From positions 186,001 through 250,000 of the forward strand of contig NZ_MTSZ01000002.1 in assembly GCF_002118315.1 (NCBI RefSeq): 64,000 bases of DNA, written 5' to 3'. Every line of letters begins with the position of its first letter. The stretch's first letter is position 1. Source of the stretch: Kiloniella majae (GTDB taxonomy: Bacteria > Pseudomonadota > Alphaproteobacteria > Kiloniellales > Kiloniellaceae). Position numbers and translations under genes: made by a program. Below, piece by piece: positions 2,688-23,345 of the stretch. The notes below the pieces were generated by a model. The model saw only the letters and a program-made list of their open reading frames with translations. It was not told where the DNA came from and did not search any database.

Positions 2688-2729
2688 GTCTCACCCGGTA
2701 AATAAACACCTGTCGCAATAGATGTTATA

Positions 2730-5630: not shown

Positions 5631-5643
5631 TTAAAAGTCAAAG

Positions 5644-5663: not shown

Positions 5664-7427
5664 TTGTGGTCGCATATCGTCCGGATCAATACCCGCGACT
5701 TCAACTGGTTTAGTCATGGCATCGCGGCGGAAAGGTTCTCCGAGTTCTTGGTTGAGGATGACCTCAACAAAAGTTGTCACCCCATCCTTCTGTGCTTCGG
5801 TGGCTTCTTTCAATGTCGCGGTAAGTTCACTTTGCGTGCGAACAGTAACACCTTTCAAACCACAGCCTTCCGCCACTTTTGCATAACTTAGGTGCGGATC
5901 CAGTTCCGTACCAACAAAGTTGTTGTCATACCAAAGGGTCGTATTCCGCTTCTCAGCGCCCCATTGATAATTGCGGAAAATGACCATTGTAATCGCGGGC
6001 CATTCTTCGCGACCGACAGAGGTCATTTCATTCATGCTGATCCCAAAGGCACCATCCCCGGCAAAACCAACAACAGGTGTATCAGGACAGCCGATTTTAG
6101 CACCGATAATTGACGGAAAACCGTAGCCACAAGGACCGAAGAGACCCGGGGCCAAATATTTACGTCCCTGTTCAAAAGTCGGATAAGCATTACCGATTGC
6201 ACAGTTATTTCCGATATCACTGGAAATAATAGCATCCTGTGGCAACCCTTCTTGAATAGCACGCCACGCCATACGTGGAGACATCCGATCCGCATCACGG
6301 CGACGAGAATCTTCGTTCCATGTCGTTCCCGGATCATCATCTTCGTGATCCATGCTGCTAAGAGCCTGTAGCCATGATGATTTTGTGTGATGGATAAGCG
6401 CTTTGCGTTCTTCCCGCCCATTATCACCAGCAGCGGGACTCAGCTGAGACAGAATTTGCTGTGCAACCTGTTTCGCATCACCGCAAATACCAACTGTTAC
6501 CTTCTTGGTTAGGCCAATACGATCAGAGTTGATATCTACCTGAATGATACTCGCATCTTTTGGCCAGTAATCAATGCCATAGCCCGGTAGTGTAGAAAAC
6601 GGATTAAGGCGTGTTCCCAGAGCCAAAACAACATCCGCTTTTGCAATGAGTTCCATTGCAGCTTTGGAGCCATTATATCCAAGAGGCCCAGCGGCCAAAG
6701 GATGACTGCCCGGGAAGCTATCGTTGTGCTGATAACCACTACATACAGGCGCATCAAGACGCTCAGCAAGAGCCTGACAATCAGAAATAGCATTCCCGAT
6801 AACAACGCCAGCACCTGATAGAATAACAGGGAACTTGGCACTTGATAAAAGCTCTGCTGCTTTGCTGATTGCTGTCGCACCCCCAGATGGGAGCTCAATG
6901 TCAACCATCTGTGGTAGTTCGATATCAATAACCTGTGTCCAGAGATCACGTGGCACATTGATCTGTGCCGGCGCGGAGCCCCGTTTAGCTTTCTGAATAA
7001 CGCGGTTAAGAACTTCTGCCATACGGGATGCGTCACGCACTTCTTCCTGATAGCAAACCATATCTTTGAAAAGCGCCATCTGCTCAACTTCCTGGAAACC
7101 ACCCTGCCCGATTGTTTTATTGGCAGCCTGCGGTGTAACCAGAAGCATTGGTGTATGGTTCCAGTAGGCAGTTTTGATTGGTGTTACAAACCCCGTAATA
7201 CCCGGGCCGTTCTGCGCAATACACATACCGATTTTCCCGGTTGTACGTGTATAGCCATCACAGATCATACCGCCATTCGTTTCATGAGCAACATCCCAAA
7301 ACTTGATGCCCGCCTTCGGGAACAAGTCAGAGATTGGCATAAAAGCAGAGCCGATGATTCCAAAACCATGTTCAATACCGTGCATTTGCAAAACTTTTAC
7401 AAAGGCTTCTTCTGTCGTCATCTTCAT
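5652..7427 (-). CDS. xsc: Xsc, sulfoacetaldehyde acetyltransferase
   Basis: Xsc is the thiamine-diphosphate enzyme that splits sulfoacetaldehyde with phosphate into acetyl phosphate and sulfite in the cytoplasm. The 591-residue length and the start MKMTTEEAFVKVLQMHGIEH are characteristic of Xsc. Glu49 (AHETNGG) is the cofactor-activating glutamate, and the ThDP/Mg motif runs from GDG (457-459) to Asn486 (FRNYQWG). The pathway partners tpa, pta, tauR and soeABC are all within 20 kb. A TauR-like direct repeat lies 212-242 bp upstream. Xsc is distinct from acetolactate synthase, which it resembles in fold. Confidence 0.95.
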   Translation of the reverse strand: MKMTTEEAFVKVLQMHGIEHGFGIIGSAFMPISDLFPKAGIKFWDVAHETNGGMICDGYTRTTGKIGMCIAQNGPGITGFVTPIKTAYWNHTPMLLVTPQAANKTIGQGGFQEVEQMALFKDMVCYQEEVRDASRMAEVLNRVIQKAKRGSAPAQINVPRDLWTQVIDIELPQMVDIELPSGGATAISKAAELLSSAKFPVILSGAGVVIGNAISDCQALAERLDAPVCSGYQHNDSFPGSHPLAAGPLGYNGSKAAMELIAKADVVLALGTRLNPFSTLPGYGIDYWPKDASIIQVDINSDRIGLTKKVTVGICGDAKQVAQQILSQLSPAAGDNGREERKALIHHTKSSWLQALSSMDHEDDDPGTTWNEDSRRRDADRMSPRMAWRAIQEGLPQDAIISSDIGNNCAIGNAYPTFEQGRKYLAPGLFGPCGYGFPSIIGAKIGCPDTPVVGFAGDGAFGISMNEMTSVGREEWPAITMVIFRNYQWGAEKRNTTLWYDNNFVGTELDPHLSYAKVAEGCGLKGVTVRTQSELTATLKEATEAQKDGVTTFVEVILNQELGEPFRRDAMTKPVEVAGIDPDDMRPQQGV

Positions 7428-7816
7428 TGTTATCTATTCCTTATTTCAAAAATTTTTCTCATCATTTAAGAGAAAATTCTCAAAGGTACTGACCAAAGTT
7501 TTGATCAATTCCAGCCGTTTATTTGTTTCGACTTTTGCTTTTAAAGTTCTGCCTTATCTTCAAGTCCAGCAAACTGAAGTCGCGGGCAAAACGCAGGCTC
7601 GTCCTGACATCAGAAAAGCAACTATTTTCTGTTTCACATAGGTCCAGATTTACCCATCAATGATACCAGATTTGAACGAATCTTTTTACAACAAAACAAC
7701 GCAGGAAAAATATAAGGAAAACCCCTGCAATCTTGTAATCAAAGTTCAACGGCCAAAGGCAATTATTTCTAAAACATCCCGGAGAAGTTAATAACGAAGC
7801 CACAAGAGCTATAAAC
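7428..7816. other. Non-coding spacer upstream of xsc
   Basis: I see no credible gene here; the reading frames crossing it lack ribosome sites and coding character. It holds the xsc promoter region and the composite repeat at 7639-7669, about 210 bp from the xsc start, so the xsc message may have a leader. Confidence 0.6.
7639..7669 (-). promoter_or_regulatory. Putative TauR operator upstream of xsc
   Basis: On the minus strand the half-site CTGGTATCA (7669-7661) is followed 22 bp later by CTGGACCTA (7647-7639). The second agrees with the CTGGACYTAA repeats I recall for Rhodobacter TauR. The same two-half-site layout recurs upstream of tpa, the tauR/chemoreceptor pair and pta. Confidence 0.6.
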
Positions 7817-7846
7817 AAAAAAAGGGACTGATCCAAAGATCAGCCC
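7817..7846 (-). terminator. Terminator of tpa
   Basis: Read on the minus strand, GGGGCTGATC pairs with GATCAGTCCC (one mismatch) around a four-base loop CTTT or TTTG, and seven T residues follow directly. It lies 33 bp after the tpa stop. This is a clear intrinsic terminator and separates tpa from xsc transcription. Confidence 0.85.
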
Positions 7847-7878
7847 CGATACAGTTTCATTTAGGAGACGTGTTAAAT

Positions 7879-9261
7879 CTATCCACAGATTTTGGATAAA
7901 GCATAATCAATTGCTGTGACAATTTCATCCAATTCTTCTGTTGTACAAATCAGCGCAGGACTTAGACAAAGCGTATTGTTAAACTCTCTAAAGCTGCGAT
8001 TGGTTGCCCCAATGATAACCCCTTGAGCCATACACTCACCAACAACAGCTTGGGTAATACTTTCATCAACGGGTTGTTTTGTCTCACGATCAACGACCAG
8101 TTCCAGACCACAGAAAAGTCCCTTTCCGCGAACATCTCCGATAACTTCATGCTTGTCCTTAAGCTCATGAAGCTTTCCAAGAAGGTAATCCCCCATATTC
8201 GTGACATTATCGAGCAGGTTTTCTTCTTCGATGATCCGCATGTTTTCAAGTGCAGCCGCAGGACCAGCAGTACATCCACCAAAGGTGGAGATATCTCTGA
8301 AAAAGCTCATGGGGTCAGAAGGGTTGTTCTTGAATTGATCAAAGACCTCTTCTGTTGTCACCGTACAGGAAATCGCAGCATAGCCAGAGGCAACACCTTT
8401 TGCCATGGTAACAATATCCGGTTTGATACCATAATGCTGATAACCAAACCACTTACCTGTCCGTCCCAGACCACAGACAACTTCATCAATATGAAGCAGG
8501 ATATCGTACTTCTTACAGATTTCCTGTACCTTTTCCCAATAGCCCTCTGGTGGCGTAATCACGCCGCCCCCAGCTGTAATTGGTTCCAGAACCAGGGCAC
8601 CGACCGTATCAGGGCCTTCGCGCAAAATGACTTCTTCAATGGCAAGAGCTGCCTTTACGCCATAATTGCCATCACCCCCGTATTGGGAACGATATTCGCA
8701 ACAATGAGGAACCTCGACAAACCCGGGTGTAAAAGGACCATATTGGTCTTTTCTCTGTAACTGACCAGTAGAGCTTAAAGCTGTAATGGTTGTGCCATGG
8801 TAATCACGATCCCGGTAAAGGATTTTATGTTTCTTCCCACCGTATTTGTTATGCGCGATCTGTCGAACGATCTTATAGGCTTTTTCGTTTGCTTCAGACC
8901 CAGAGTTTGAAAAGTAAACTCGACTCATACCCGGCATCTTATCAATAAGGGCCTTGGCAAAATTTGCTCCGGGAATAGAACCAGCAGAGTTTGCAAAATA
9001 ATTAAGTTTCACAAGCTGTTCACGCACAGCATCCGCAATCGTTTCCCGGCCATAACCAACGTTTACAGTCCATACACCACCAGAGACAGCATCAAGATAC
9101 TTTTTACCCTTCGCATCCCAAACGTTCATCCCCTTACCTTCGATGATCACAAGGGGATCAACAGTTTCATAGCGTTTGTGCTGGCTGATATGATGCCATA
9201 CATGAGCCCGGTCATTTTCAATGACCTCGCTAAAATCGTTCATTTGTTCTGTTAATGTCAT
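7879..9261 (-). CDS. tpa: Tpa, taurine-pyruvate aminotransferase
   Basis: Tpa moves the amino group of taurine to pyruvate, giving sulfoacetaldehyde for Xsc and alanine. The 460-residue class-III aminotransferase has SGSEANEKA at about 120 (PLP phosphate pocket), DYHGTT around 153, Asp259-Glu260, and Lys288 in MAKGVASG as the Schiff-base lysine. SGGVWTVNVGYG near 60 is typical of Tpa and differs from the SWWVN of BioA. The ribosome site GGAAGTG lies just before the ATG. A TauR-like repeat sits 159-190 bp upstream. No alanine dehydrogenase to recycle alanine is visible nearby. Confidence 0.93.
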   Translation of the reverse strand: MTLTEQMNDFSEVIENDRAHVWHHISQHKRYETVDPLVIIEGKGMNVWDAKGKKYLDAVSGGVWTVNVGYGRETIADAVREQLVKLNYFANSAGSIPGANFAKALIDKMPGMSRVYFSNSGSEANEKAYKIVRQIAHNKYGGKKHKILYRDRDYHGTTITALSSTGQLQRKDQYGPFTPGFVEVPHCCEYRSQYGGDGNYGVKAALAIEEVILREGPDTVGALVLEPITAGGGVITPPEGYWEKVQEICKKYDILLHIDEVVCGLGRTGKWFGYQHYGIKPDIVTMAKGVASGYAAISCTVTTEEVFDQFKNNPSDPMSFFRDISTFGGCTAGPAAALENMRIIEEENLLDNVTNMGDYLLGKLHELKDKHEVIGDVRGKGLFCGLELVVDRETKQPVDESITQAVVGECMAQGVIIGATNRSFREFNNTLCLSPALICTTEELDEIVTAIDYALSKICG

Positions 9262-9308
9262 GGTTCACTTCCAACACTAAAAGGCCTTAGCTGTTCCGAC
9301 AGATTGAG

Positions 9309-9330
9309 CCAACCCGATTAATCTGGTTGG
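9309..9330. promoter_or_regulatory. 22-bp near-perfect palindrome in the tpa leader
   Basis: Arms ccaacc and ggttgg flank the palindromic core gattaatc, with a single symmetric mismatch pair on each side of the core. It lies 48 bp before the tpa ATG and downstream of the TauR-like repeat. It could be an operator for a second dimeric regulator or a leader hairpin; there is no T-tract. Confidence 0.45.
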
Positions 9331-9419
9331 GCCACTATGTAGATGCTTTTCTTAATGGAAGTGTCACACGCGTTTTCATCAAGGCGATAGCTCCAGTTGA
9401 GCCAAATTGATAAAACCAC

Positions 9420-9451
9420 TTGAACCAGAAATGACAATTTGGTGAGTCCAG
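9420..9451 (-). promoter_or_regulatory. Putative TauR operator upstream of tpa
   Basis: On the minus strand CTGGACTCA (9451-9443) is followed 23 bp later by CTGGTTCAA (9428-9420). The first half-site is identical to those at tauR and pta. The position, 160-190 bp before tpa, suggests a long tpa leader or activation at a distance. Confidence 0.65.
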
Positions 9452-9609
9452 ATTCTACGATCCATAGAGCCTTAAGTGGTAACATGATAGGATGTGGCAT
9501 AAATCGCTGTGATTCTTCCACGGCTTACCTTAGAATTTTAAGCCATAGAATTTAAAGATAGTTCACAAGCATAAAATTCTTGATATGAATGACTGCAGGG
9601 GAAAGGCCG

Positions 9610-9987
9610 ATGATGCCAACAACCGTACATAGCATTTCGAAATATACAGTGCAGATTCTGAACACCAAATCTACTGCTGACAAACCCAAGTCTCAGATAA
9701 TTATCAGACTATTGAACGAAAAAGGTAAAGACTGCGGACTTGCTGTATTCAAAGACTATGGCGATCAAAACGCCCAAAACCCCTATGGTGACCATAAAAA
9801 AGGAACAGCCACAGCCTATTTCGATATCAAGCATTATCAGGCATTCATTGAAATTCTCAGAATGGAAAAAGAACTCTATTGGAAAATTGCCTGGCAGCAA
9901 ACAGGGCCAACCAAGTCTGTATCAGATGTTTCACTCGATACAAAAGAAGAAATTATCGGCGAACACTTTGGGAATGGTGGCGCATAG
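9610..9987 (+). CDS. Hypothetical protein (about 125 residues)
   Basis: I do not recognise this protein. AGGGGAAAGG sits six bases before ATG 9610, which supports that start over ATG 9589. The product is soluble with no signal peptide or membrane segment. Its middle contains KHYQAFIEILRMEKELYWKI, probably helical, and a Gly/Asp-rich turn (KDYGDQNAQNPYG). It is a lone plus-strand gene between tpa and the importer operon and ends just before a strong palindromic terminator. Its place inside the taurine locus hints at, but does not prove, a linked role. Confidence 0.65.
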   Translation: MMPTTVHSISKYTVQILNTKSTADKPKSQIIIRLLNEKGKDCGLAVFKDYGDQNAQNPYGDHKKGTATAYFDIKHYQAFIEILRMEKELYWKIAWQQTGPTKSVSDVSLDTKEEIIGEHFGNGGA

Positions 9988-10033
9988 ATAGCTATAAAAT
10001 CTAATTCTGTTCAAGATTAAATATGACACCAGA

Positions 10034-10065
10034 AATGGCGGTAAAGTTTAAACTTTACCGCCATT
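10034..10065. terminator. 32-bp perfect palindrome, bidirectional terminator
   Basis: The halves aatggcggtaaagttt and aaactttaccgccatt are exact complements with no unpaired centre. On the plus strand AATTTTTG follows. It lies between the convergent 9610 gene and the last importer gene, so it probably ends both transcripts. Confidence 0.8.
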
Positions 10066-10096
10066 AATTTTTGCTGAATTTTCTAATTAAGGCTGA

Positions 10097-10984
10097 CTAC
10101 ACAGGCGCCATACCTTTATCAGCTATATCAGCCGCCCTTTTTGCGGCTTCTGCAGCAAGAGCTTCGCGCCTCATTTCTCTACGGCGGTAGATTTCATGCA
10201 TAACAGCCCCCACCAGCGTAATACCAACAATCACCACAGCCAAAGCACTTAACGACGGGTTGGTCCCCAGTCTTACTTTACCAGCAAGAACAGTTGTCAA
10301 AGTACTTTCTGCCTGAATAGTAAACAGGGTTGTATTGTAGTTTTCGAAACTGGTCAGGAAAGCCAGAAAGGCAGCCGAGCCAATCGCAGGTCTCAGGAAG
10401 GGAATAAGGATCTTCCAGAACACCTGAACATTTGTCGCCCCGAGATCAAGCGCAGCTTCTTCTTGGGTGCGATCAAAGCGTTGCAGTCTGGACAGGAAAA
10501 TCAACATGCAATAAGCAGAAATAAACGTTGATTGACCAATAACCGACAGGAAAATACCGCTGTAAAAAACAGAGTTATAATCCGCATCGACCCAAACACC
10601 CAGACGATCCCAGAAAACCAGCGTTGAAATCCCCAAAATAACACCAGGTGTCAGTAGCGGAGACACAACAATCATGTAATAGATAGACTGAGCTTTCTTG
10701 TGAACCTGTGACATCAACAAAGCTGCTGCCAAACCGATCGGAACAGCCAAGCAAACAACACCCAAACCAATCCAAAGCGAGTTTTTGATTCCCTTTATCA
10801 TGTCCTTGTCATTGGCGAGAACCGAGAACCATTTCATGGTTAATTCATCTATCGGTATCGCTGTCGGGAAGGTCGGCGTGTTAAAAGCAGTTACCCCCAT
10901 CAAGATCAACGGGCCAAAAAGATATAGGAAGAACATCGCGATATAAAAACGCACCATGTACTTCTGAATAAGATCAGAGGTCAT
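10097..10984 (-). CDS. ABC transporter permease, PotC-like
   Basis: This is an inner-membrane permease of the spermidine/putrescine (PotC) type. The 295-residue protein has about six hydrophobic helices and the EAA loop EEAALDLGATNVQVFWK, which docks on the ATPase. It ends in an unusually charged Ala/Arg-rich tail (RREMRREALAAEAAKRAAD). It is the last of a four-gene importer operon and overlaps the upstream permease by four bases. The family also imports other amines and amino acids. The location between tpa and tauR suggests taurine or a relative, which is inference. Confidence 0.85.
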   Translation of the reverse strand: MTSDLIQKYMVRFYIAMFFLYLFGPLILMGVTAFNTPTFPTAIPIDELTMKWFSVLANDKDMIKGIKNSLWIGLGVVCLAVPIGLAAALLMSQVHKKAQSIYYMIVVSPLLTPGVILGISTLVFWDRLGVWVDADYNSVFYSGIFLSVIGQSTFISAYCMLIFLSRLQRFDRTQEEAALDLGATNVQVFWKILIPFLRPAIGSAAFLAFLTSFENYNTTLFTIQAESTLTTVLAGKVRLGTNPSLSALAVVIVGITLVGAVMHEIYRRREMRREALAAEAAKRAADIADKGMAPV

Positions 10985-11979
10985 TTCGCAAGCTCCCCTA
11001 AATTAACTTTGAAGAACTTCATCACTGCCAATACAAAGATAATACAGGAGAAGAGCAAAACAAATGCATAGGCAGAACCACGAGACCAGTCACCGCCGGT
11101 AAAGAACCAGTCATAAATGATCTGTGTAAACCAGAGACTGCTTGGTCCTCCCAAAATTTGGGGAACAGCCAACGCACCTGCCGAAAGCATGAAAACCATC
11201 GTACAGCCAGAAGCGATACCCGGTTTTGCATAGGGAATAACCACACGATAGTGAATACGCCACCACGGTGACCCTAAATCTCTGGCTGCTTCAATCTGGT
11301 TGTGATCCAGACTTTCAATCGCATTGTAAATCGGGAAGACCATGAGCAGGATATAGGCATAGCTCAAGCCCGCATACATCGCGACATCGGCCTTGATGAA
11401 ATCAATAGGTTCGTCCAGAATTCCCATCCCCATCAAAGTGACGTTGATCACACCGCTTGATCCAAAAAGAATTCGGAAGGCAAAGGCCCTTAGAATTTCA
11501 TTAACCCAAAACGGCAAAATCAAAGCGATCAGAAACAAACGAGTTGTCCCGCCTTTTGTGCTTTGAGCAAGGTAATAAGCAATTGGGTAACAGAGCAAGA
11601 ATGCCAATAAGGTTACACCAACAGATGCCAGAATGGTTTTCAGGAAGATTTGCAAATGGAGCAAATTAAAGAGATTTTCATCACTATCGCGCCCAAAAAT
11701 CAAATAGGAATAATTTTTGAGTGTATAGGCATCGGGATTCCCCCCAATCGCACCATCTCTAAATGAAAAATCCACCATATAAAGTTGGGGGGCAACAATC
11801 ATTAAGCCAACCCAAATAAATACAGCACCAAGTAGATAGGTAGAAACCAACACGCCGTTCTTTTTGACGAAAGTGATCTGTCGCAAATTTGCCCAAACTG
11901 TATCGGTATTCTTTTGCAGCATTGGCGCGACAAGAAGAGCCAGAACAACGGCGAGAAATACGGACAGGAAATCACTCAT
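10981..11979 (-). CDS. ABC transporter permease, PotB-like
   Basis: This is the second inner-membrane permease of the importer, 332 residues. An N-terminal helix (about 3-20) precedes the normal six-helix core, so it is longer than typical PotB. The EAA loop EAARDLGSPWWRIHYR is clear. It overlaps the ATPase gene by eight bases and the PotC-like gene by four, so the three are co-translated. Confidence 0.85.
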   Translation of the reverse strand: MSDFLSVFLAVVLALLVAPMLQKNTDTVWANLRQITFVKKNGVLVSTYLLGAVFIWVGLMIVAPQLYMVDFSFRDGAIGGNPDAYTLKNYSYLIFGRDSDENLFNLLHLQIFLKTILASVGVTLLAFLLCYPIAYYLAQSTKGGTTRLFLIALILPFWVNEILRAFAFRILFGSSGVINVTLMGMGILDEPIDFIKADVAMYAGLSYAYILLMVFPIYNAIESLDHNQIEAARDLGSPWWRIHYRVVIPYAKPGIASGCTMVFMLSAGALAVPQILGGPSSLWFTQIIYDWFFTGGDWSRGSAYAFVLLFSCIIFVLAVMKFFKVNLGELAK

Positions 11980-13069
11980 CAGCTAAATCTCCTTCTGGTA
12001 ACACAATAGCTCGGTCGACATTAAAGCAAATTTTTGCTGTATCGCCGACCTTCAAGTGCGTTCCCTTGCCTTCATTACTCACAGAGAAGGATATGCGTTT
12101 TTCCGTGTCCCCTTCCATATGAATATGGATCGATGGTCCTTCGAACTCTTCGGCAAGAATTGTGCTTTCGATAATATTTTCAGCAGGTGTTGTATCGTTA
12201 CCTTCGACAAGAGAAAGTGCTTCTGGTCGAACAAAGAGAATGGCCGCATCCCCCACATTCATATCTTGTGTATTACGCCCTCTGAGCAAACCAAACTTAT
12301 TTTGGATTTGCGCATACTCACCTTCAACCTTAACAACTTTCCCATAGAAAGGGTTATTTTCGCCGACAAATGAAGCAACAAATGCTGTTTCAGGCTCATT
12401 ATAAATTGTACTGCCATCACCAACCTGCTCGATAACACCCGCAGACATCACAGCAATACGATCCGACATGGTCAGGGCTTCGCCTTGATCATGTGTAATA
12501 TAAATAAAGGTAATACCGACACGCTGCTGAATATTTCTCAATTCACTGCGCATATGCTGACGCAGCTTCAAATCCAGTGCTGATAACGGCTCATCAAGAA
12601 GCAAAACTTCTGGTTCAACAGCTAACGCACGGGCAATAGCAACACGTTGTTTTTGCCCCCCCGACAGTTCAGAGACCATTTTGTCTCCCTGTCCAGAAAG
12701 AGCAATAAGGTCGAGAAGTTCCTCGGCTCGCCGGCGACGTTCAACGTACTTTACACCTTCGACTTCCAGGCCAAAGGCAATGTTATCTGCCACTGACATC
12801 AATGGGAAAAGGGCCAAATTTTGAAAGATTAATGCTGTCGGACGCTTGTTCGGTCCAATACCTCGCATATCGCTTCCGTTAATGCGAATCGTTCCTTCAG
12901 TCGGCTCGTTAAATCCTGACACTGCCCGCAGGATCGTTGTTTTCCCGCAACCGGATGGGCCAAGAAAACTGAAAAACTCACCCTTTCGAATTGCTAAATT
13001 AGCATCGTCTACGGCTGTAAAATCACCGAAACGAATTGTTACATGTTCTAAATCTACACCTGAGCTCAT
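11972..13069 (-). CDS. ABC transporter ATP-binding protein, PotA-like
   Basis: This ATPase powers the importer. The 365-residue protein has Walker A GPSGCGKTT (37-45), the signature LSGGQKQR near 140, Walker B VLLLDEPLSALD shortly after, and a C-terminal TOBE region of about 120 residues, as in PotA-type importers. It lies 111 bp after the binding-protein gene; that gap contains a stable hairpin which may lower its expression relative to the binding protein. Confidence 0.88.
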   Translation of the reverse strand: MSSGVDLEHVTIRFGDFTAVDDANLAIRKGEFFSFLGPSGCGKTTILRAVSGFNEPTEGTIRINGSDMRGIGPNKRPTALIFQNLALFPLMSVADNIAFGLEVEGVKYVERRRRAEELLDLIALSGQGDKMVSELSGGQKQRVAIARALAVEPEVLLLDEPLSALDLKLRQHMRSELRNIQQRVGITFIYITHDQGEALTMSDRIAVMSAGVIEQVGDGSTIYNEPETAFVASFVGENNPFYGKVVKVEGEYAQIQNKFGLLRGRNTQDMNVGDAAILFVRPEALSLVEGNDTTPAENIIESTILAEEFEGPSIHIHMEGDTEKRISFSVSNEGKGTHLKVGDTAKICFNVDRAIVLPEGDLADE

Positions 13070-13134
13070 GAGGACCCCACGACCACTCTCTCGGAAAAGA
13101 TAAAATCCCGAAATTTATTATTTTAAGGATGAAG

Positions 13135-13160
13135 GGGAGCACAGAGAATTCTGTGCTCCC
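13135..13160 (-). terminator. 3' hairpin between binding-protein and ATPase genes
   Basis: Arms gggagcacag and ctgtgctccc form a perfect 10-bp stem with loop agaatt, 20 bp after the binding-protein stop codon. No T-run follows on the minus strand, so it looks like an RNA-stabilising or attenuating hairpin that raises the binding protein above the membrane subunits. Confidence 0.6.
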
Positions 13161-13180
13161 TTACCGAACTCAATTACAGA

Positions 13181-14320
13181 TTAAGCTGCGACGAATTTAT
13201 CGCGGAATTCTGTACGAAGCTGTGCATACCAAGTTGGCTCTGCAGGCCAAGCAAAGAGATTATCCAAAGCATCGCCTGGATAAGCTTCCGCAAAATTCTT
13301 CTTGGATGCATCAGACAGATGAGCATCAGCACCGATCACAGCAGAATTATACCCTGTCAGGTTCGCGGTAAGTCCGCCATTTTCAGGGCGATATGAGAAT
13401 TCCAGGAAGGCATAGATTTGGTCAATATTCTTGGCGCCTTTAGGCATTGCAAGACCATCAACCCAAGCCAAAGCTCCTTCTTTCGGTGCCTGATACTGAA
13501 CAGGGTTTCCTTCACCTTTCAGCGCAAGGATTGGACCATCCCAAGTTTGCCCCATAATAACGTCTTCCTGCATCAGACCGTTTTTCTGACCATCAGCATC
13601 ATTCCAGAATTTTTTGACGTTTGCTTTGCGATCAATACAGAATTTGGTGATTTTGGACCACACATCCTTCATGTCGTCTTCGCTATTGTAAGCGCGTTTC
13701 ACATCGCCCGGCGCAAGCTCACCGATGGTTTCCATGTAAAGGCCAGCCCCCAACATCATTGAATGCGGACGACCCATCATGGTGTTTTCGCCACCATCTT
13801 TCCAAAGATCACCATAGCTAGGAACACCGCCTTCAGGTGTCCATTTATCGGTACGCCACGCAACAGCTTCTGTTCCCCAGAGCTGCGGTAGCCAATGAGA
13901 TCCCTTACCTGCAAAATTCCAGTCCGTTTCACCAACTTTGGCCATTGCTGCGTTAACACGATCAATTTTAACTTTGTTCATGTCAAAAGGCTGAAGCAGG
14001 TTTAAAGGCTCCCACTGTTGCGCACGCATATTTGTCGGCGAGATGACATCAAAGCCACGACCACGTGTCGCACGAAGCTTGTTGATAATCTCTTCATTGG
14101 AACCAATGCCAGTGTGATTGATTGTGATCCCGGTTTCTTTTTTGAACGCTTCCTTGAATTCTTCAGGAAGATAATCAGACCACATCATCACATTTAGCTC
14201 TCCGGAAGAGGAAAGCGCGTTTTTGATGAATGCGGGCGCAGCCAATGTTGAAGCACCAGCAATCGCAGCACCTTTTAGAACTTTACGACGGCTTACTGTA
14301 GTTTTCTTAAGTATTGTCAT
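13181..14320 (-). CDS. ABC transporter substrate-binding protein, PotD family, Tat-type signal
   Basis: This is the periplasmic receptor of the importer, 379 residues. The N-terminus has a twin-arginine signal (SRRKVLKGAAIAG) and a hydrophobic stretch ending near ALSS, so it is probably exported folded by the Tat system. The mature part begins ELNVMMWSDYLPEEF, typical of the PotD/PotF fold. TauABC-type systems use a different binding-protein family, so this would be a different route for taurine or a related amine. The substrate is inferred from the neighbours only; polyamines remain possible. Confidence 0.85.
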   Translation of the reverse strand: MTILKKTTVSRRKVLKGAAIAGASTLAAPAFIKNALSSSGELNVMMWSDYLPEEFKEAFKKETGITINHTGIGSNEEIINKLRATRGRGFDVISPTNMRAQQWEPLNLLQPFDMNKVKIDRVNAAMAKVGETDWNFAGKGSHWLPQLWGTEAVAWRTDKWTPEGGVPSYGDLWKDGGENTMMGRPHSMMLGAGLYMETIGELAPGDVKRAYNSEDDMKDVWSKITKFCIDRKANVKKFWNDADGQKNGLMQEDVIMGQTWDGPILALKGEGNPVQYQAPKEGALAWVDGLAMPKGAKNIDQIYAFLEFSYRPENGGLTANLTGYNSAVIGADAHLSDASKKNFAEAYPGDALDNLFAWPAEPTWYAQLRTEFRDKFVAA

Positions 14321-15165
14321 TTTTTTCTCCCATACTCCTTCATTTTATCAACGAGGAGGGTCCCTGTTCACAGACCAGAACTTGCGATATTAGGCAATTC
14401 ATGGCTGCTCTTAATGTTTATGACTTTGACTTCAGTTAAGATTGATTTTAAAGGACAAGCTTTCCTCGGCACCTCCCTGATATAGAATGTGTAAATGTGC
14501 AAATAATCGGCTTTTTACAAAGCCATAAAAATTGACCATATATTTGGGAAGGCAAGCGCCGCATAGACGCTGAGAAGAAGCGGGTAAACCTTAAATCAGG
14601 ATAACTATTTTTCTTGATTAAAGCGACTGCCTTCATCAAGAACGTCCCCGAATGATATTTTGCGCTTGGGCAAAACCCATTTTTCGCTCCCCATACATAA
14701 TCATTCACTTAAAACCGGAATGATTAGTTGTACTTATCAATCAAAGAATTGATTTCAGAAATATTATCAAAATCAATTCAAACGTTGACCATTATTATTA
14801 TCATTCTACGAGCCAGCATTCCGTATTTAAGTTTAGAGATCCTGGCATCAACAACGACAAAACAGTTAAAGTACTCATTCTATTTCCGTTCACAGAAGAA
14901 ACAGAAATAAAACATAAAAAGAAGTAATCTTATTCAGAGCCACGAGAACTAAAATACACTATTATGGTGATTATTCCTAAATTTATTTACAAAACAGATA
15001 TATTTTTACGTAAACAAATTTTGGAAACTACTTGATAATTATATCTAAAATTGTTTTTTAGATTAAATACTTCACCAATTCTTTTGTACTTCGTTCCTCC
15101 GTCCTAAACCAAAATCACGCTTCGATATTTCCTGATAATACGGTAAATGAATTAGCCGTGGTTTA
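14321..15165. other. AT-rich region without a supported gene, upstream of the importer operon
   Basis: About 850 bp separate the binding-protein start from a TauR-like repeat at 15166-15197. The frame at 14448-14708 (minus, GTG start, no ribosome site) and the frame at 14728-14910 (plus, TTG start) are not convincing. A GGACGGAGGAAC run near 15095-15106 (minus) looks like a ribosome site but has no start codon at the right distance. The region could be a long 5' leader, a small RNA, or the remains of a decayed gene. Confidence 0.5.
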
Positions 15166-15197
15166 TAGTACCAACAGGAAAAACTATATGAGTCCAA
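15166..15197 (-). promoter_or_regulatory. Putative TauR operator facing the importer operon
   Basis: On the minus strand TTGGACTCA (15197-15189) is followed 23 bp later by TTGGTACTA (15174-15166). The layout matches the repeats upstream of tpa, tauR, xsc and pta. It lies 47 bp after the chemoreceptor stop codon and points toward the importer, whose first start codon is about 850 bp away. Confidence 0.5.
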
Positions 15198-15243
15198 CTT
15201 TTAGAGTTTCGGACATAGCCAAATAATAACAAGGCCCCTGAAT

Positions 15244-17460
15244 CTACTTCCGGATCTCAAGCATAAAATCATCAACTTCTTTGGACAGTGACAAAAGTTC
15301 TGCCGTTAATTGCTCGGAAGAATTAAGAACAACACCAGCTGCCTGCCCGGTTTCTTCTGAAGCCCGCATAACATCACCAATGTTTTTAGAAACTTTGCTG
15401 GTTCCATCCGCTGCCAATCTCACATTGCGAGACATTTCACCTGTGGCCGAAGTTTGTTCGGTCACAGCAGCCGCAATGCCAGCCGTAATTTCATCAACAT
15501 TACCAACGGCCTTGGTAACCTTCGTTATTGCGTTCGCGGCAACACTCACTGTGTCTCTGATTGTCGTAACCTGAGAAGAAATATCGTCTGTGGCAGTTCC
15601 CGTTTGTGTCGCAAGATTTTTAACTTCTGATGCAACAACTGCAAAGCCTTTACCCGCATCCCCTGCGCGTGCTGCTTCAATCGTTGCGTTCAAGGCCAAT
15701 AAATTAGTTTGATCGGCAATTTCACTGATCAAATCAACAACCGCACCAATTTTTTCTGCCGCTTCAGAAAGGCTGTCTACTGCTCGGTTCGTTGCCTGTG
15801 CGTCTGTGCTCACCTCTCTGGAAGCTGTTGCAGCCATTGATGTCTGACGGCTAATTTCTTCGATAGAAGCCGTTAATTCTTCGGAAGCTGCTGCCACAGA
15901 TTCCACATTTACAGAAACATCCGAAGATGCTTCAGAAGCTTGAGAGGATTGCTGTTGCGCCTGACTAGCTGTTGCATTCATTTCCTGTGCTGTCTGGCCA
16001 AGTTGGGAAACGGATGTTTGAACGCTGGAAACAATTCCTTTAACCCGGATATTAAACTGATCAGCAAGCGCATCCATTTCTTCTTTGCGTTTTTGTTCTG
16101 CAATCGCTTTTGCTTCTTCACGTTCTTTTCGTAAGCGCTCAACATGTTGCGCGTTTTCTTTAAAAACATTCAACGCACTAGCCATTTCACCAATTTCGTC
16201 GTGCTGACCTGTCGGAACTTCTATGGATAGATCCCCTTCGGAAATTTCTTTCATAGCCTCTGACAAGGAGACCAAGCGAGAAATAATCATTTTGCTGACA
16301 ACAAAATACATAACTGCAGCAGCAAGCGCGATTGAGATACCCAAAATGACCAGAAGCCATATCTTTCCGTCCGTAATCGCATTGTTAGACAAAGAAACAG
16401 AGCCAATCGCCCCTTCTTCCGCAGAACTCGCAATTTTGTCCACGAGATCTTTCAATTTTTGGGAAAGCTCGGCATTGTTCCCTAACAGTTGGCTCGAATT
16501 ATTATTTTCAGCTATTTGAGCAATTCTAAGGGAAAAAACATTTTCTTCACCCAACAAAAGGGCGTCCAGCTTCTTGGTTAATTCTCTGATCTTAATTGCT
16601 TCTTGAGAAATATCATCATTGATAAGAGAAATATTATCTTTGTTACGTCTGGCGGCCTCTTTGACTTTCTTTTGTGCCGCTTCAATAAGTTCTTGTTCTT
16701 GATACGTAGCAACTTCAGCCAAGAGAGAAAAAATCTGGTTCGTATCAACCTGCAACGAAGAAGAAACCTGACTTCTCGTGACCGATATCAAAATTTCAAT
16801 AAGTTGGTTGGTAACATCTGTACTTCCAAAGGAAGCATCAATTGTATCTTCGACAGTTTTTCGTGCCGCCTCTTGATAGGGTCCAACAAGACCATCGAAC
16901 TCTCGCTTGGTAGCCAGAAGTTCAGTCATTAAGGCCAAGCTTCGGGAGTTAAGATCTAGTTGTTGAGCAACTGAAGAATTCAACCCGGACAAATTATTCT
17001 TCAATTCTTTTGATGTTTTTTCTAGAAGTTTACTCGTTTCCTGGTCAAATCCACTTTCATTCAGGGCAATAATTAAACTATCAAGGGATGCTTCTTTTTG
17101 CTGTAGAGACGTAAAAACATCGTTTTTTTCCTGTTGTGATTTGACTGTGATCAGTGCAGGTGCAGAGGAAGCGATGTTGGTTGCTGTTTCTGACAGTTCC
17201 AGTGCAATCGACATTTGCGGAATACTTTTCCTGGATATTTGATCAAAAGCACTACTTACACCATCAAAAGACAGCCATCCCACCAAGCTGGCTAGCAACG
17301 TGGTGGAAACGATACTGCCAACGGCCAGCATCAGTTTGGTTTTTACTTTTAATGCCCGTTTGTCGTCTGATCTTTGCTCATTATCGCCTGACGCTTCTTC
17401 TGACGTTTCTTCGACAATATCGTCCTCTTCGATCTGCGTATTAACATCCGTATCAGACAC
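15244..17460 (-). CDS. Methyl-accepting chemotaxis protein, candidate taurine chemoreceptor
   Basis: This is a 738-residue membrane chemoreceptor. An acidic cytoplasmic N-terminus of about 40 residues precedes TM1 (43-64). A long all-helical periplasmic domain of roughly 300 residues, the size of the helical bimodular (HBM) type, leads to TM2 near 365-390. A HAMP domain ([16 protein letters not shown]) and the signalling tip ([20 protein letters not shown]) follow. It is divergent from tauR and shares its TauR-like operator, so it is probably induced with taurine use and may sense taurine or a product. The ligand is inference. Confidence 0.88.
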
Positions 17461-17528
17461 ATCTCTCTCCTGTCAGGCTTTATAAACCACTAAAGGGCAA
17501 CATTATTTGGGGACGACCACACTCTAAA

Positions 17529-17564
17529 TAGGACCAATTCAATATATTAATGAGTCCAGTCCAG
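17529..17564 (-). promoter_or_regulatory. Putative TauR operator between the chemoreceptor and tauR
   Basis: On the minus strand CTGGACTCA (17559-17551) is followed 22 bp later by TTGGTCCTA (17537-17529), and a second CTGGAC (17564-17559) abuts the first. It lies 70-105 bp from the chemoreceptor start and about 93 bp from the tauR start, allowing control of the receptor and autoregulation. Confidence 0.65.
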
Positions 17565-17656
17565 AAGCATGCTATGCTTTAGGAAAAGATAGCCTAGATT
17601 AGCACCCAATAATTTAAAGATGTTTAATTCGATGTGAAACCACGGGGGAATAAGAA

Positions 17657-19180
17657 TTGGCGAGCGATATCCTTTTCCATTTAGAAAAGAAGAGCAGAGA
17701 GTCTCTTCAAAGTCAGCTTCGCCGCGCTATTCTAAACGCTATCCTGAATAGCACTTTGCCTGCAGGGTTCAAGTTACCTTCCAGTAGAAAGCTAGCCAAT
17801 GATTTAGGGGTTTCTCGCAACACAGCCATTCTGGTTTATCAAGGATTGACAGATGATGGCTATCTCGTCACCCGAGAACGCAGTGGCATCTTTGTAAACG
17901 AAGAGTTTGTAGAAAGTTTAGAACAGTCCAAACTCTCACAAAAAGAAACCAGAGTCACAGAACAGGTCGAACAGGAAAAGCCGGATTGGACCAATCGCTT
18001 TTTCATGCGCCCCTCAGAACGTCATTACCTCAACCTCCCAAAGGATTGGCGGGATAAACCTTTTCCCTTTGTCTATGGACAGCCGGACAAACGCCTCTTT
18101 CCCCTAACAGCATGGCGTGAATGTAGCAGGCTAGCCCTGAGCACACGGGACATGGCTGACTGGATCCATGACGATAAAATTTATGACGATCCTCAACTTA
18201 TCGAACAAATAAGAACCCGATTGCTCCCCGCCCGAGGCATCCATGTTTCTAGCGACCAGATCCTTGTCACACTTGGGGGGCAGAACGCGCTCTACCTTTT
18301 GGCGGGACTGTTGGTTCGACAACACACACGCGTTGGCATAGAAAACCCGGGATATCCCGATGCAAAAAATATCATGCAGCTATTCACCAACAATATTGCC
18401 CCGATCCCCGTAGATGAAAAAGGAATGGTCGTCGATGATCATTTAAATGACTGTAATTATGTTTTTGTAACCCCAAGTCATCAATGCCCGACGACGATCA
18501 CAATGCCTCTTTCCAGACGAAACCGCCTTTTGGAAAAGGCCACCGAACAGGACTTTCTTATCATCGAAGACGATTATGAGAACGAGATCAACTATTTCAA
18601 ATCGGCAAGCCCGGCTCTAAAGGCTTTGGATACAAGTGATCGGGTTATCTATACCAGTAGTCTCTCCAAAACACTTTTTCCAGGCTTGCGTATTGGGTAC
18701 ATCGTCGCAGCACCTGAGCTTATTGAAGAACTAAAGTTTTACCGTAGACTGGTTGTCCGTTATACCCCGAGTAACAATCAGCGCACCGTAGCACTTTTCT
18801 TATCGCTTGGATATTACGATAGCCTTATCTATAGCCTGCGTCGGAAATGGCATAACAGATGGAATTCTGTTCACAAAGCATTGAAAACCTATATCCCGGA
18901 ATGTAGCTATTCCCATTCTTCCGGAGGGACATCATACTGGATTAAAATCCCCGAAGGCATAAGTGCAAATCAACTCGTAAAAGAAGCTTATAAAGATGGG
19001 GTGTTAATAGAATCAGGCATGCCATTCTTTCTGGAATCACCTGCGCCGGATACTCATATTCGCATAGGTTTTACCTCTATCGAAAACGCAAAAATCGAAC
19101 CCGGGATCAAGCGACTGGGTAAAACCATTGACCGAATGCTCAGAGAGAAAAATACATCCCTCGGCAATACAACTAGATAA
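17657..19180 (+). CDS. tauR: TauR, MocR-type regulator of taurine use (TTG start)
   Basis: TauR is a GntR/MocR fusion regulator. Residues about 10-80 form a winged helix (LPSSRKLANDLGVSRNTAIL), and the remainder is a fold-type I aminotransferase domain with IIEDDYENE near 302 and Lys338 in SSLSKTLFPG as the predicted PLP lysine. The family binds PLP and an amine effector; Rhodobacter capsulatus TauR activates taurine genes. The start is TTG at 17657 behind GGGGGAA with six-base spacing. The cluster of tpa, xsc and pta supports the TauR name over other MocR paralogues. Confidence 0.85.
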   Translation: MASDILFHLEKKSRESLQSQLRRAILNAILNSTLPAGFKLPSSRKLANDLGVSRNTAILVYQGLTDDGYLVTRERSGIFVNEEFVESLEQSKLSQKETRVTEQVEQEKPDWTNRFFMRPSERHYLNLPKDWRDKPFPFVYGQPDKRLFPLTAWRECSRLALSTRDMADWIHDDKIYDDPQLIEQIRTRLLPARGIHVSSDQILVTLGGQNALYLLAGLLVRQHTRVGIENPGYPDAKNIMQLFTNNIAPIPVDEKGMVVDDHLNDCNYVFVTPSHQCPTTITMPLSRRNRLLEKATEQDFLIIEDDYENEINYFKSASPALKALDTSDRVIYTSSLSKTLFPGLRIGYIVAAPELIEELKFYRRLVVRYTPSNNQRTVALFLSLGYYDSLIYSLRRKWHNRWNSVHKALKTYIPECSYSHSSGGTSYWIKIPEGISANQLVKEAYKDGVLIESGMPFFLESPAPDTHIRIGFTSIENAKIEPGIKRLGKTIDRMLREKNTSLGNTTR

Positions 19181-19201
19181 CAGATAAAAGAAACCAGATT
19201 C

Positions 19202-19244
19202 TTGGACTCCTGCTGGACTCATCGAATGGGTCCAAATGGAGCTA
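19202..19244 (+). promoter_or_regulatory. Putative TauR operator upstream of pta
   Basis: TTGGACTCC (19202-19210) and CTGGACTCA (19213-19221) are direct repeats 11 bp apart, and ATGGAGCTA (19236-19244) follows 23 bp after the second. The site is on the plus strand, about 135-175 bp before the pta ATG, so it keeps the orientation toward its target gene seen at the other sites. Confidence 0.65.
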
Positions 19245-19377
19245 TCCCCAACCTCTAAGACTGGAAAGAATTACCTCGGAACCTATTCCGTTCAATTACC
19301 CAAATCCAGCCCTGAAAATCAATTAGGGAATTCTTTGGTTAATTAACTGGAATTATTTAACAAACGAGGAACAGTTC

Positions 19378-20295
19378 ATGTTGAGTCAGCAACCAATAGA
19401 ATGCCCCAATGCATTGCTACATAATGCTGCTCAATATGCACCCGCACGAACAGCTATTGTTAATGCGACCAGCGCCATAGCCATGGAAAGTGCTTACCTT
19501 GCTCAAAAAGCAGGGCTGGTAGAGCCTGTACTTGTTGGTGATAAATCGATTATCTCCCGCTTATCAAAAGATATGGGGTGGGATCTGTCAAAAGTCGAAA
19601 TTCACCACACAGCTAATGAAGAAGAAGCTGCGAAAATATCTGTCCTGCTCGCCCGATCAGGAAAAGTAAACGCGATCATGAAAGGGCAAATTCACACAGA
19701 CATCTTCATGAAGGCCATTGTAAACCGTGAAACTGGGCTTAGGACCGGTCGGCGTCTATCGCATGCTTTTTACATGTCAGTTCCGGGTTCTGACCGAACC
19801 ATGATTATTACAGATGCGGCCGTTAACATTGCGCCGGACCTCGAAACAAAAAAAGCGATCATTCAGAACTCGGTTGAGATGATGCATGCACTTGGCAACA
19901 GCAAGCCAAAAGTCGCGATCCTATCCGCAACAGAAGAAGTAAATCCGCAGATGCCGTCCAGTACAGACGCTGCAACATTGACAGAATGGGCCAGAGAAGA
20001 AGTTCTTGATGCTTTTGTTTTTGGCCCTATGGCATTGGATAATGCGATCTCTCCTGAAGCAGCACATATTAAGGGGATCAAAAATCCTGTCGCCGGAAAA
20101 GCCGACATTTTGGTGGTACCAAACATTGAAACCGGAAACGCCATGTTCAAGCAACTAGTTTACTGTGACAGTGCCTGCGCTGCCGGAATTGTATTAGGCG
20201 CAAGCGTTCCGATTGTATTGACCAGTCGCGCCGATCCCCCCGCAGCACGCCTTGCTTCTATGGCACTCGCAGCAATTGTTGCTCATATTACTTAA
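19378..20295 (+). CDS. pta: Short phosphate acetyltransferase (Pta)
   Basis: This phosphate acetyl/butyryltransferase family enzyme should convert the acetyl phosphate from Xsc to acetyl-CoA. At 305 residues it is the short single-domain type, lacking the N-terminal domains of E. coli Pta. Family features include MKGQIHTDIFMKAIV near 101 and the C-terminal LVYCDSACAAGIVLGA. It follows tauR on the same strand with a TauR-like operator between them, and precedes soeABC by 101 bp. A phosphotransbutyrylase activity cannot be excluded, but the taurine context favours acetyl. Confidence 0.85.
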   Translation: MLSQQPIECPNALLHNAAQYAPARTAIVNATSAIAMESAYLAQKAGLVEPVLVGDKSIISRLSKDMGWDLSKVEIHHTANEEEAAKISVLLARSGKVNAIMKGQIHTDIFMKAIVNRETGLRTGRRLSHAFYMSVPGSDRTMIITDAAVNIAPDLETKKAIIQNSVEMMHALGNSKPKVAILSATEEVNPQMPSSTDAATLTEWAREEVLDAFVFGPMALDNAISPEAAHIKGIKNPVAGKADILVVPNIETGNAMFKQLVYCDSACAAGIVLGASVPIVLTSRADPPAARLASMALAAIVAHIT

Positions 20296-20396
20296 AAAAA
20301 TTGTAGATTTAATAAAATATAACAATCTATAGTAAGCCTTAAAAAACTCAAAAAAACAAAAATCACAACAGGATAGCGTCAAATTGGAGATGATTT

Positions 20397-23345
20397 ATGG
20401 GTTTCTTTCCCACGTCCAAACAAGAGGAAGTTGATACTTCCCCGCACGTATCGGACGAAGTTAAGACCACGACATGTTACATGTGTGCGTGCCGCTGTGG
20501 CATCAAGGTACACCTGCGTGGCGATCAGATCCGCTATATCGAAGGCAACCCAGATCATCCGGTAAACAAAGGCGTGCTCTGTGCAAAGGGCTCAGCCGGG
20601 ATTATGCAGCATAATTCCCCTGCCCGTTTGCAAAAACCGCTTCTCAGAACAGGAGAACGTGGATCTGGTGAATTCAAAGAAATTGAATGGGATGAAGCCC
20701 TTGAACTCGCTAGAGGATGGCTTGGCGAGATCAGAGCAAAAGACCCGTCAAAACTTGCTTTCTTTACAGGTCGCGATCAGTCGCAAAGCTTGACCGGATG
20801 GTGGGCAGGGAAATTTGGCACAAGAAATTTTGCCGCCCATGGTGGATTTTGTTCCGTCAACATGGCCGCTGCTGGTTTATATAGCGCTGGCGGATCTTTC
20901 TGGGAATTTGGAGAACCCGATTGGGATCATACGAAGTACCTCCTGATGTTCGGGGTCGCCGAAGACCATGATTCTAACCCGATTAAAATTGGGCTGGGTA
21001 AATTAAAGTCCCGCAAGGGAACCAAGTTTGTGTCTGTAAATCCTGTTCGCACAGGTTATTCCGGTATTGCCGATGAATGGATTGGCATCCGCCCCGGGAC
21101 AGATGGTCTCTTTGTCTTTGCCCTCATTCACGAGCTTCTCAAGGCCGAGAAGATCGACTGGACTTACATAACCCGCTACACAAATGCCCCCTGGCTTGTC
21201 ATACAAGACCCCGGCGCGGCAGATGACGGTCTTTTTGCCCGCGATGCCGAGGGAAATCCGCTTTGTTATGATGCTGAGGCAAAAAAACTCGTCTCATCAA
21301 CTAACCTCGAAGCCAAACCAGCATTGGCAGGTGAATTCACCCTTCCGGATGGGCGTAAGGCTGTTCCGGCATTTCATTTGATGGCTGATCGTTATCTTGA
21401 TCCTCAATATGCACCAGAAGCCGTTGCCGATCAGATTGGCTATAGCGCAGCAAATATTCGCCGTATTGCAGCAGAAATTGCCCATGTTGCCTTCGAAGAA
21501 ACAATCGAACTGGATGTAGCCTGGACAGACTGGGCTGGGCGTAAGCAGGATAAAATGATCGGGCGACCGGTTTCCATGCACGCGATGCGCGGGATCTCTG
21601 CCCATTCAAATGGTTTTCATACCTGCCGTGCCATTCACGTCTTGCAAATGCTATTGGGTTCTATTGATGTTCCCGGTGGTTTTAGGCACAAGCCACCCTT
21701 CCCACGCCCCTGTCCTCCGGGTCCAAAACCTGCGGGACATGAATCCATCGCCAACACGCCGCTACCCGGCATGCCGCTTGGCTTCCCTACTGGTCCTGAA
21801 GACTTGCTGGTTGAACCGGATGGCACACCCAAACGCATAGACAAAGCCTACAGCTGGGAATACCCACTGGCCTCTCACGGCTTGATGCACATGGTCATTC
21901 ACAATGCCTGGAAAGGTGATCCCTATCCAGTAGATTTGCTTTTCATGTATATGGCGAATATGAGCTGGAACAGCTCTATGAATGTTCCCGGTACAATTAA
22001 ATATCTCACCGATAAAAATGAAGACGGTAGCTACAAGATCCCCAAGATCATCTATTCAGATGCATATCATTCTGAAATGGTTCCCTATGCCGATCTTGTG
22101 CTGCCGGATACAACCTATCTTGAACGATGGGATGCGATTTCTCTGCTTGATCGCCCGATCTGCAGCGCACATGGCCCTGCTGATTCGATCAGGCAGCCCG
22201 TCATAAAACCAGACAGAGATGTACGCCCCTTTCAGGATGTTCTGTTGGATCTGGGTGCACGGGTTGGCTTGCCCGGCATGACCAAGGAAGATGGCAGTGC
22301 CATGTACCCTGGCGGCTATTCTGATTACATTACAAACCACGAACGAACACCGGGCGTTGGACCACTCGCGGGCTGGCGAGGACAAGACGGAGACAGTCAC
22401 GGCAAAGGAGATCCCAACCCGGATCAGTTGCAAAAGTACATCGATAACGGATGCTTCTGGTCAGATGAGTTCACCCCGGAACAGTCTTACTATAAATTTG
22501 CCAACCGCTCTTATCTTGATCGATCTCATGAAATGGGATGGATACCCAATGCAGAACGTATTGTGATGCACATCTATTCTGAACACATGCAAAAGTTCCG
22601 CCTAGCAGCTCAGGGACATGGCGACATACAACCACCTGATGATCTCCGCAGTCGAATAGACGAGACATTTGATCCTCTTCCGATCTGGTACATGCCTTTG
22701 GAAGAAAAAGCTGTGGATGGCAAAGAGTATCCTCTGCACGCGGTGACCCAACGGCCAATGCATATGTATCACAGCTGGGGCTCTCAAAATGCCTGGTTGA
22801 GGCAGATCACAGCTCAAAACCGTCTGTTCATCAACGAAGAAACTGCCCGAAAACACGGCATTGACAACGAAGACTGGATTTGGGTTATCTCACCACATGG
22901 ACGGGTAAAGACCCAAGTCAAGTTGATGAGCGGTGTTAATCCCCACACAATCTGGACGTGGAATGCTATCGGCAAACGTAAAGGCGCCTGGGGTCTGGAT
23001 GATAAAGCGCCGGAATCTAACCGTGGCTTTTTGCTAAACCATATTATCTCGGAACTGCTACCGCCAAGAAAAGACGGCTATCGTTATTCCAATTCTGATC
23101 CCGTCACAGGTCAGGCAGCCTGGTATGATCTCAGGGTGCGGATAGAAAAGTGCGACGCGCTGGAAGAAGGTGCGACAGAGCCAATGTTTGAGGCTTTTGC
23201 CCCTCTCCCCAATGCACCGGAACAAATGGCTGTATTGCGTTATGGTGCCGATTTTGGCGAAGAAAAGCCAAGGTCAAAAAGTTCAACGCCTAAAGTACAA
23301 GAAGCACCATTATCTGATGATACCCTGGCAGGAGAGAAACCATGA
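20397..23345 (+). CDS. soeA: SoeA-like sulfite dehydrogenase, molybdopterin catalytic subunit
   Basis: This is the catalytic subunit of a cytoplasmic sulfite:quinone oxidoreductase, turning the sulfite from Xsc into sulfate. The 982-residue bis-MGD oxidoreductase has Cys27, Cys30, Cys34 and Cys62 for an N-terminal [4Fe-4S] cluster and Cys152 (HGGFCSVN) as the probable Mo ligand. No Tat signal precedes the first cysteines, so unlike DMSO or thiosulfate reductases it should stay in the cytoplasm, as known for SoeABC. GGAG lies before the ATG. It overlaps soeB by four bases. Polysulfide or thiosulfate reductase is the main alternative. Confidence 0.87.
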   Translation: MGFFPTSKQEEVDTSPHVSDEVKTTTCYMCACRCGIKVHLRGDQIRYIEGNPDHPVNKGVLCAKGSAGIMQHNSPARLQKPLLRTGERGSGEFKEIEWDEALELARGWLGEIRAKDPSKLAFFTGRDQSQSLTGWWAGKFGTRNFAAHGGFCSVNMAAAGLYSAGGSFWEFGEPDWDHTKYLLMFGVAEDHDSNPIKIGLGKLKSRKGTKFVSVNPVRTGYSGIADEWIGIRPGTDGLFVFALIHELLKAEKIDWTYITRYTNAPWLVIQDPGAADDGLFARDAEGNPLCYDAEAKKLVSSTNLEAKPALAGEFTLPDGRKAVPAFHLMADRYLDPQYAPEAVADQIGYSAANIRRIAAEIAHVAFEETIELDVAWTDWAGRKQDKMIGRPVSMHAMRGISAHSNGFHTCRAIHVLQMLLGSIDVPGGFRHKPPFPRPCPPGPKPAGHESIANTPLPGMPLGFPTGPEDLLVEPDGTPKRIDKAYSWEYPLASHGLMHMVIHNAWKGDPYPVDLLFMYMANMSWNSSMNVPGTIKYLTDKNEDGSYKIPKIIYSDAYHSEMVPYADLVLPDTTYLERWDAISLLDRPICSAHGPADSIRQPVIKPDRDVRPFQDVLLDLGARVGLPGMTKEDGSAMYPGGYSDYITNHERTPGVGPLAGWRGQDGDSHGKGDPNPDQLQKYIDNGCFWSDEFTPEQSYYKFANRSYLDRSHEMGWIPNAERIVMHIYSEHMQKFRLAAQGHGDIQPPDDLRSRIDETFDPLPIWYMPLEEKAVDGKEYPLHAVTQRPMHMYHSWGSQNAWLRQITAQNRLFINEETARKHGIDNEDWIWVISPHGRVKTQVKLMSGVNPHTIWTWNAIGKRKGAWGLDDKAPESNRGFLLNHIISELLPPRKDGYRYSNSDPVTGQAAWYDLRVRIEKCDALEEGATEPMFEAFAPLPNAPEQMAVLRYGADFGEEKPRSKSSTPKVQEAPLSDDTLAGEKP

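Follow-up and report, generated by a model that had tools for sequence, protein, structure and literature searches.

Do the composite repeats that recur along the taurine locus of Kiloniella majae constitute a set of operators, and if so, which regulator do they belong to and which genes do they serve? We addressed this in a 64-kb window (the whole stretch of DNA that was analyzed; G000, contig C11:186001-250000, from a genome of 4.38 Mb), for which a preliminary description had listed five direct repeats, each made of two YTGG half-sites, as candidate sites for a MocR dimer. The analysis below indicates that the repeats are very probably operators of the MocR/TauR-type regulator encoded in the locus itself, at 17657-19180.

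Composite direct repeats of the taurine locus

All five repeats were found again at the places and with the letters and start-to-start spacings ascribed to them. A second, weaker tpa box (9388-9419) is new relative to these five. The boxes and the regulator gene are as follows, in window coordinates.

7639-7669, minus strand: TauR-type box before xsc, CTGGTATCA N13 CTGGACCTA, 22 bp, direction toward xsc
9420-9451, minus strand: TauR-type box before tpa, CTGGACTCA N14 CTGGTTCAA, 23 bp, direction toward tpa
9388-9419, minus strand: weaker second tpa box, GTGGTTTTA N14 CTGGAGCTA, 23 bp, directly behind the first tpa box
15166-15197, minus strand: 15.2 kb box, TTGGACTCA N14 TTGGTACTA, 23 bp, direction toward the transporter operon
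17529-17559, minus strand: tauR/chemoreceptor box, CTGGACTCA N13 TTGGTCCTA, 22 bp, direction toward the chemoreceptor gene
19213-19244, plus strand: pta box, CTGGACTCA N14 ATGGAGCTA, 23 bp; whole element 19202-19244
17657-19180, plus strand: MocR-type regulator, presumed to bind the boxes, with a GntR domain and an aminotransferase-like domain

The YTGG core was present in every half-site of the five described repeats except the second one of the pta box, which has ATGG instead. The pta box also carries an extra half-site, TTGGACTCC, 11 bp earlier (19202-19210), and its spacer holds an inverted TTGGACCCA at 19227-19235. Four of the five repeats had been described as pointing toward the gene that they precede. 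The remaining box, at 17529-17559, lies between the divergent chemoreceptor and regulator genes, and judging from its position it probably serves the former, because boxes of this kind read away from the regulator gene, as they do in the relatives described below. All five boxes would therefore face a target.

Occurrence in the genome

The two-block pattern YTGGWNTCA N13-14 YTGGWNCTA, which was derived from the window sites themselves, matched the genome at three places, all in this locus, whereas its reversed control gave no match. Allowing up to two mismatches yielded 4 matches at spacing 22 and 6 at spacing 23, and half of these 10 are the five window sites. The other five, four within open frames of at least 309 codons and one shortly upstream of a DnaJ-domain gene with no evident taurine connection, were rejected as further regulon members. 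Many genome-wide matches unlinked to sulfonate genes, which the preliminary description had named as the finding that would speak against it, were looked for, and none was seen at up to one mismatch. The boxes are thus nearly confined to the locus.

Because the two-block pattern came from the sites, the scan was redone over the window with the published half-site of Rhodobacter capsulatus, CTGGACYTA (of CTGGACYTAA), at spacings of 22-23 bp. The five best-scoring places of the window were the pta, tauR/chemoreceptor and xsc boxes and the two adjacent tpa boxes. Four of the five described sites therefore rank first in the window as CTGGACYTAA-type direct repeats, the 15.2 kb site being the exception.

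Conservation in Kiloniella

Regulators 78-97% identical to that of the window are encoded in seven public loci, six of them named Kiloniella (one an uncultured bin) and the seventh an uncultured Rhodospirillales bin. A somewhat broader pattern, not matched by the tpa box, gave 31 matches across nine Kiloniella genomes and none for the reversed control. Gene mapping placed all 31 upstream of xsc, the transporter, the chemoreceptor or pta. Matches were present in eight of the nine genomes, the ninth being a 1.5-Mb assembly that is 77% complete. Both K. laminariae genomes have xsc apart from the regulator and keep the box before xsc, and both tpa boxes also occur in loci L138, L139 and L141.

In alignments, half-site columns were invariant far more often than columns outside the box: 14/18 versus 35/165 in the chemoreceptor-tauR region (eight genomes), 16/18 versus 27/165 between tauR and pta (eight genomes), and 15/18 versus 232/891 in the transporter region (seven genomes). 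Placements of the box template that equaled the box, the box itself included, numbered 8 of 166, 2 of 166 and 3 of 892, respectively. The corresponding values for the xsc and tpa regions (42 of 421 and 40 of 296) come from a test that had no power there because only four close genomes were aligned.

Spacing and orientation in related regulators

Two half-sites about two helical turns apart fit, by sequence, operators of a MocR/TauR-type regulator such as that at 17657-19180, as had been proposed. The additional claim that the wide spacing is distinct from that of known TauR sites had to be abandoned. The spacing is 22-23 bp in the window and 22 bp in the tauR intergenic regions L158, L160, L163 and L164: on pSymB of Sinorhizobium meliloti 1021, CTGGACTCA N13 CTGGATATA lies between tauR and the genes on its far side; beside tauR, CTGGACCTA N13 CTGGACATA occurs in Cereibacter sphaeroides and a Paracoccus, and CTGGAATCA N13 CTGGATATA in an Aminobacter. 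In these relatives, the box is oriented toward a divergent target, which is tauA or TRAP transporter genes.

The upstream DNA of 84 distinct related regulators was then surveyed for TGG-anchored direct repeats at spacings from 9 to 60. Repeats reading away from the regulator gene occurred at spacing 22 in 27 regulators and at spacing 23 in 26 (52 of the 84 in all), compared with at most four regulators at any other spacing, at most three in the toward orientation, and 19 of 3360 shuffles. After thinning of the set, an away-reading repeat of 22-23 bp was found for 38 of 66 regulators and in 14 of 2640 shuffles. A distinct wide spacing is therefore ruled out, as 22-23 bp is the common spacing in this regulator group; the boxes of the window are a new example of a known arrangement.

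Identity of the regulator and alternative readings

The product of 17657-19180 matches PF00392 (residues 18-80) and PF00155 (residues 170-487), as is typical of the MocR subfamily of the GntR family, and its gene lies beside xsc, tpa and pta, the neighborhood of a TauR.

Several observations weigh against the boxes being operators of this regulator, or against the regulator being a TauR. The 15.2 kb site scores 13/18 in the CTGGACYTA scan, tied with seven unrelated places, and it lies about 845 bp from its presumed target, the first gene of the transporter. The criterion of the 84-regulator survey was chosen after the boxes had been seen, and by that criterion 32 of the 84 have no such box, including seven of the eight from other genera of the same family. 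Finally, in a maximum-likelihood tree of 66 regulators (the 84 rows minus close copies, short rows and second copies), a branch with support 96/83 separates the window regulator from the TauR proteins of S. meliloti and Cereibacter, the latter standing in for R. capsulatus. Its own side of the tree holds regulators of which some are also found beside xsc. Orthology to the TauR of S. meliloti and the Rhodobacter group was not recovered, and because of this placement "TauR" is, as far as the tree can tell, a functional label for the window gene and not proven orthology.

TauR is described as an activator of taurine genes that binds direct repeats of CTGGACYTAA (PMC5320631), and also as an activator at PtauA of S. 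meliloti (PMC4254191). It is rather unlikely, then, that the window regulator mainly represses, or that the tauR-side box serves autoregulation only and leaves the chemoreceptor gene uncontrolled. MocR proteins do often repress their own genes (PMC5320631), and the box sits between both genes. In S. meliloti, Cereibacter, Paracoccus and Aminobacter, however, the box beside tauR also points away from this gene and faces transporter genes, and the away orientation was general in the survey.

A less probable alternative involves a second Kiloniella MocR protein, encoded at G000:C11:396638-398089 (L145:6636-8096), which is 48% identical to the window regulator and groups in the tree with the TauR proteins of S. 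meliloti and Cereibacter. Its region (L145:4749-8096; G000:C11, approximately 394.7-398.1 kb) contains, before the regulator gene, a direct repeat with the same geometry and a spacing of 23 bp, CTGGATATA N14 CTGGATATA, which reads away from that gene and, in the window's genome, faces a divergent aldehyde dehydrogenase gene. This box is present in all eight Kiloniella genomes, with CTGGATATA twice in seven of them and TTGGATATA/CTGGCTATA in the eighth. That this paralogue is the main protein bound to the window boxes, or that both regulators share them, seems improbable to us: its own half-sites are unlike the ...CTCA and ...CTA half-sites of the window, and the gene at 17657-19180 lies inside the locus and travels with it across the genus.

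Chance similarity without function can be dismissed almost completely, for although at three mismatches the pattern does not exceed its reversed control (31 matches at spacing 22 and 37 at spacing 23 in all, versus 55 and 54) and the 15.2 kb site alone is unexceptional in the independent scan, near-exact matches are confined to the locus and conserved through the genus, and the genome, genus and independent scans and the alignments contradict chance for the set as a whole. As far as can be judged from sequence, the boxes are a real, conserved set of TauR-type operators, and their assignment to a MocR regulator is right.

Elsewhere, one Kiloniella genome (G007:C373; L201:934-7991) has, beside tpa and xsc and away from the rest of the locus, another MocR gene together with a second gene resembling xsc (45%).

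Predicted mode of regulation

Each predicted operator would consist of a YTGGACTCA-like half-site followed in direct orientation by a YTGGNNCTA-like one, 22-23 bp apart, a spacing that would let a head-to-tail regulator dimer contact the two half-sites from the same face of the DNA. The operators would read toward the genes under their control: xsc and tpa, the operon of the Pot-type transporter, the gene for the chemoreceptor, and pta together with the oxidoreductase genes. By analogy with TauR, the regulator, sensing taurine with pyridoxal phosphate (PLP), would most likely activate these promoters, and activation would coordinate taurine uptake, taxis and breakdown.

The two paralogues offer a lead as to how their boxes may be told apart. 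All 36 regulators that have a box and carry Asn in the recognition helix show C at base 7 of the second half-site (62 regulators have Asn in all). Ile, Met or Pro went with A at that base in 13 of 15, with L219 and L220 as exceptions; one regulator was unreadable. Many of these rows are close kin, and the association is not significant and serves as a lead because the tree provides only two independent contrasts. We tentatively put forward that the two MocR paralogues share an operator geometry and are insulated by base 7, which is C in CTGGnnCTA and A in CTGGATATA and would be recognized by a single helix residue (the Asn of SRNT, or the Ile or Met of SRIT/SRMT), and that the window paralogue drew two additional members into the taurine regulon, the chemoreceptor and, preceded by a leader of about 800 nt, the Pot-type transporter. 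This is a possibility to which we give less than even weight.

The region behind the 15.2 kb box

The region between the 15.2 kb box and the transporter operon (14321-15165) has no evident gene, and a similar length is kept in seven Kiloniella genomes. A hidden gene was rejected: of nine small frames on one strand, the only one with a match in K. laminariae overlaps the box. An Rfam search of 5000-25000 gave four matches at E<=1, all under the gathering scores and from implausible families. No consistent core promoter emerged behind the boxes; only the 15.2 kb box is followed by a conserved block, CCGTATT, and the gap holds 6 promoter-like sites versus 3.6 expected. The simplest reading is that the transporter operon may be preceded by a long leader transcript.

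Genes of the taurine locus

The genes presumed to be served by the boxes are listed below.

5652-7427, minus strand: xsc, sulfoacetaldehyde acetyltransferase (TIGR03457, above cut-off)
7879-9261, minus strand: tpa-like aminotransferase (named from its neighborhood; best NCBIfam model just below cut-off)
10097-14320, minus strand: Pot-type ABC transporter operon (binding protein 13181-14320, ATPase 11972-13069, permeases 10981-11979 and 10097-10984)
15244-17460, minus strand: methyl-accepting chemotaxis protein with a TorS-type sensor domain (profile search)
19378-20295, plus strand: pta-type phosphotransacylase, presumed target (profile search)
20397-25063, plus strand: molybdopterin oxidoreductase, iron-sulfur subunit and probable membrane subunit

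The name tpa also draws on the 73% identity of the product to a Paracoccus denitrificans protein whose gene adjoins a MocR gene. The "pta" product agrees best with bifunctional/phosphate-butyryltransferase-like models and falls far under the cut-off of the Pta model TIGR00651. The oxidoreductase genes at 20397-25063 are likely those of the sulfite dehydrogenase SoeABC. That the substrate of the Pot-type transporter is taurine is a guess; in L150-L153 and L156, which represent other genera and families, genes related to this operon also lie close to related regulators. Among 20 mapped regions, the chemoreceptor gene adjoins the regulator gene only in Kiloniella.

Two further neighbors flank these genes. 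A 132-amino-acid protein without a Pfam or NCBIfam match is encoded at 9589-9987, divergently from tpa, and is 77-99% conserved in the Kiloniella loci that cover it. Biotin synthesis genes (bioA, a bioC-like gene, a hydrolase gene and bioF; 648-5424) adjoin xsc.

Comparison with known systems

These results extend a TauR-type regulon to Kiloniella. They predict that Kiloniella couples taurine breakdown to chemotaxis and to a type of transporter that the taurine section of PMC5320631 does not list for its alphaproteobacterial members. In titles and abstract openings, we found nothing comparable for Kiloniella and taurine; the same holds, among the matches listed, for a chemoreceptor tied to TauR or taurine genes and for such a transporter. 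A taurine chemoreceptor is known from Vibrio cholerae, Mlp37 (PMC4754685). The pairs of boxes and regulators, including the two paralogues with equal geometry and different half-sites (CTGGATATA versus ...CTCA and ...CTA), make the rules of DNA recognition by MocR proteins testable by swaps of residues and bases.

According to Suvorova and Rodionov (2016, PMC5320631), the direct repeats of characterized MocR regulators, R. capsulatus TauR included, are separated by two or three turns of the helix. GabR and PdxR operators follow this scheme on one DNA face, as the window boxes would, and differ from them in half-sites and regulons, a distinction drawn here from published descriptions rather than sequence. 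The extra elements of the pta site, TTGGACCCA and TTGGACTCC, resemble the MocR motifs with three and four boxes in Table 2 of the same paper. There is also a likeness to TauR itself: the R. capsulatus operator and the reconstructed TauR regulons, which share a conserved motif, have CTGGAC-type direct repeats like the window boxes, the regulons comprise tpa, xsc and pta as here, and those of some Rhodobacterales include a BisC/HybA/DmsC-type oxidoreductase, as does the window locus (PMC5320631). The tauR intergenic regions of Rhodobacterales and Rhizobiales share the 22 bp spacing, but the second half-site ends in ATA in the boxes seen there and in CTA in the Kiloniella window. Likewise, where TauR systems have tauABC or TRAP genes, the window locus has a Pot-type transporter and a chemoreceptor.

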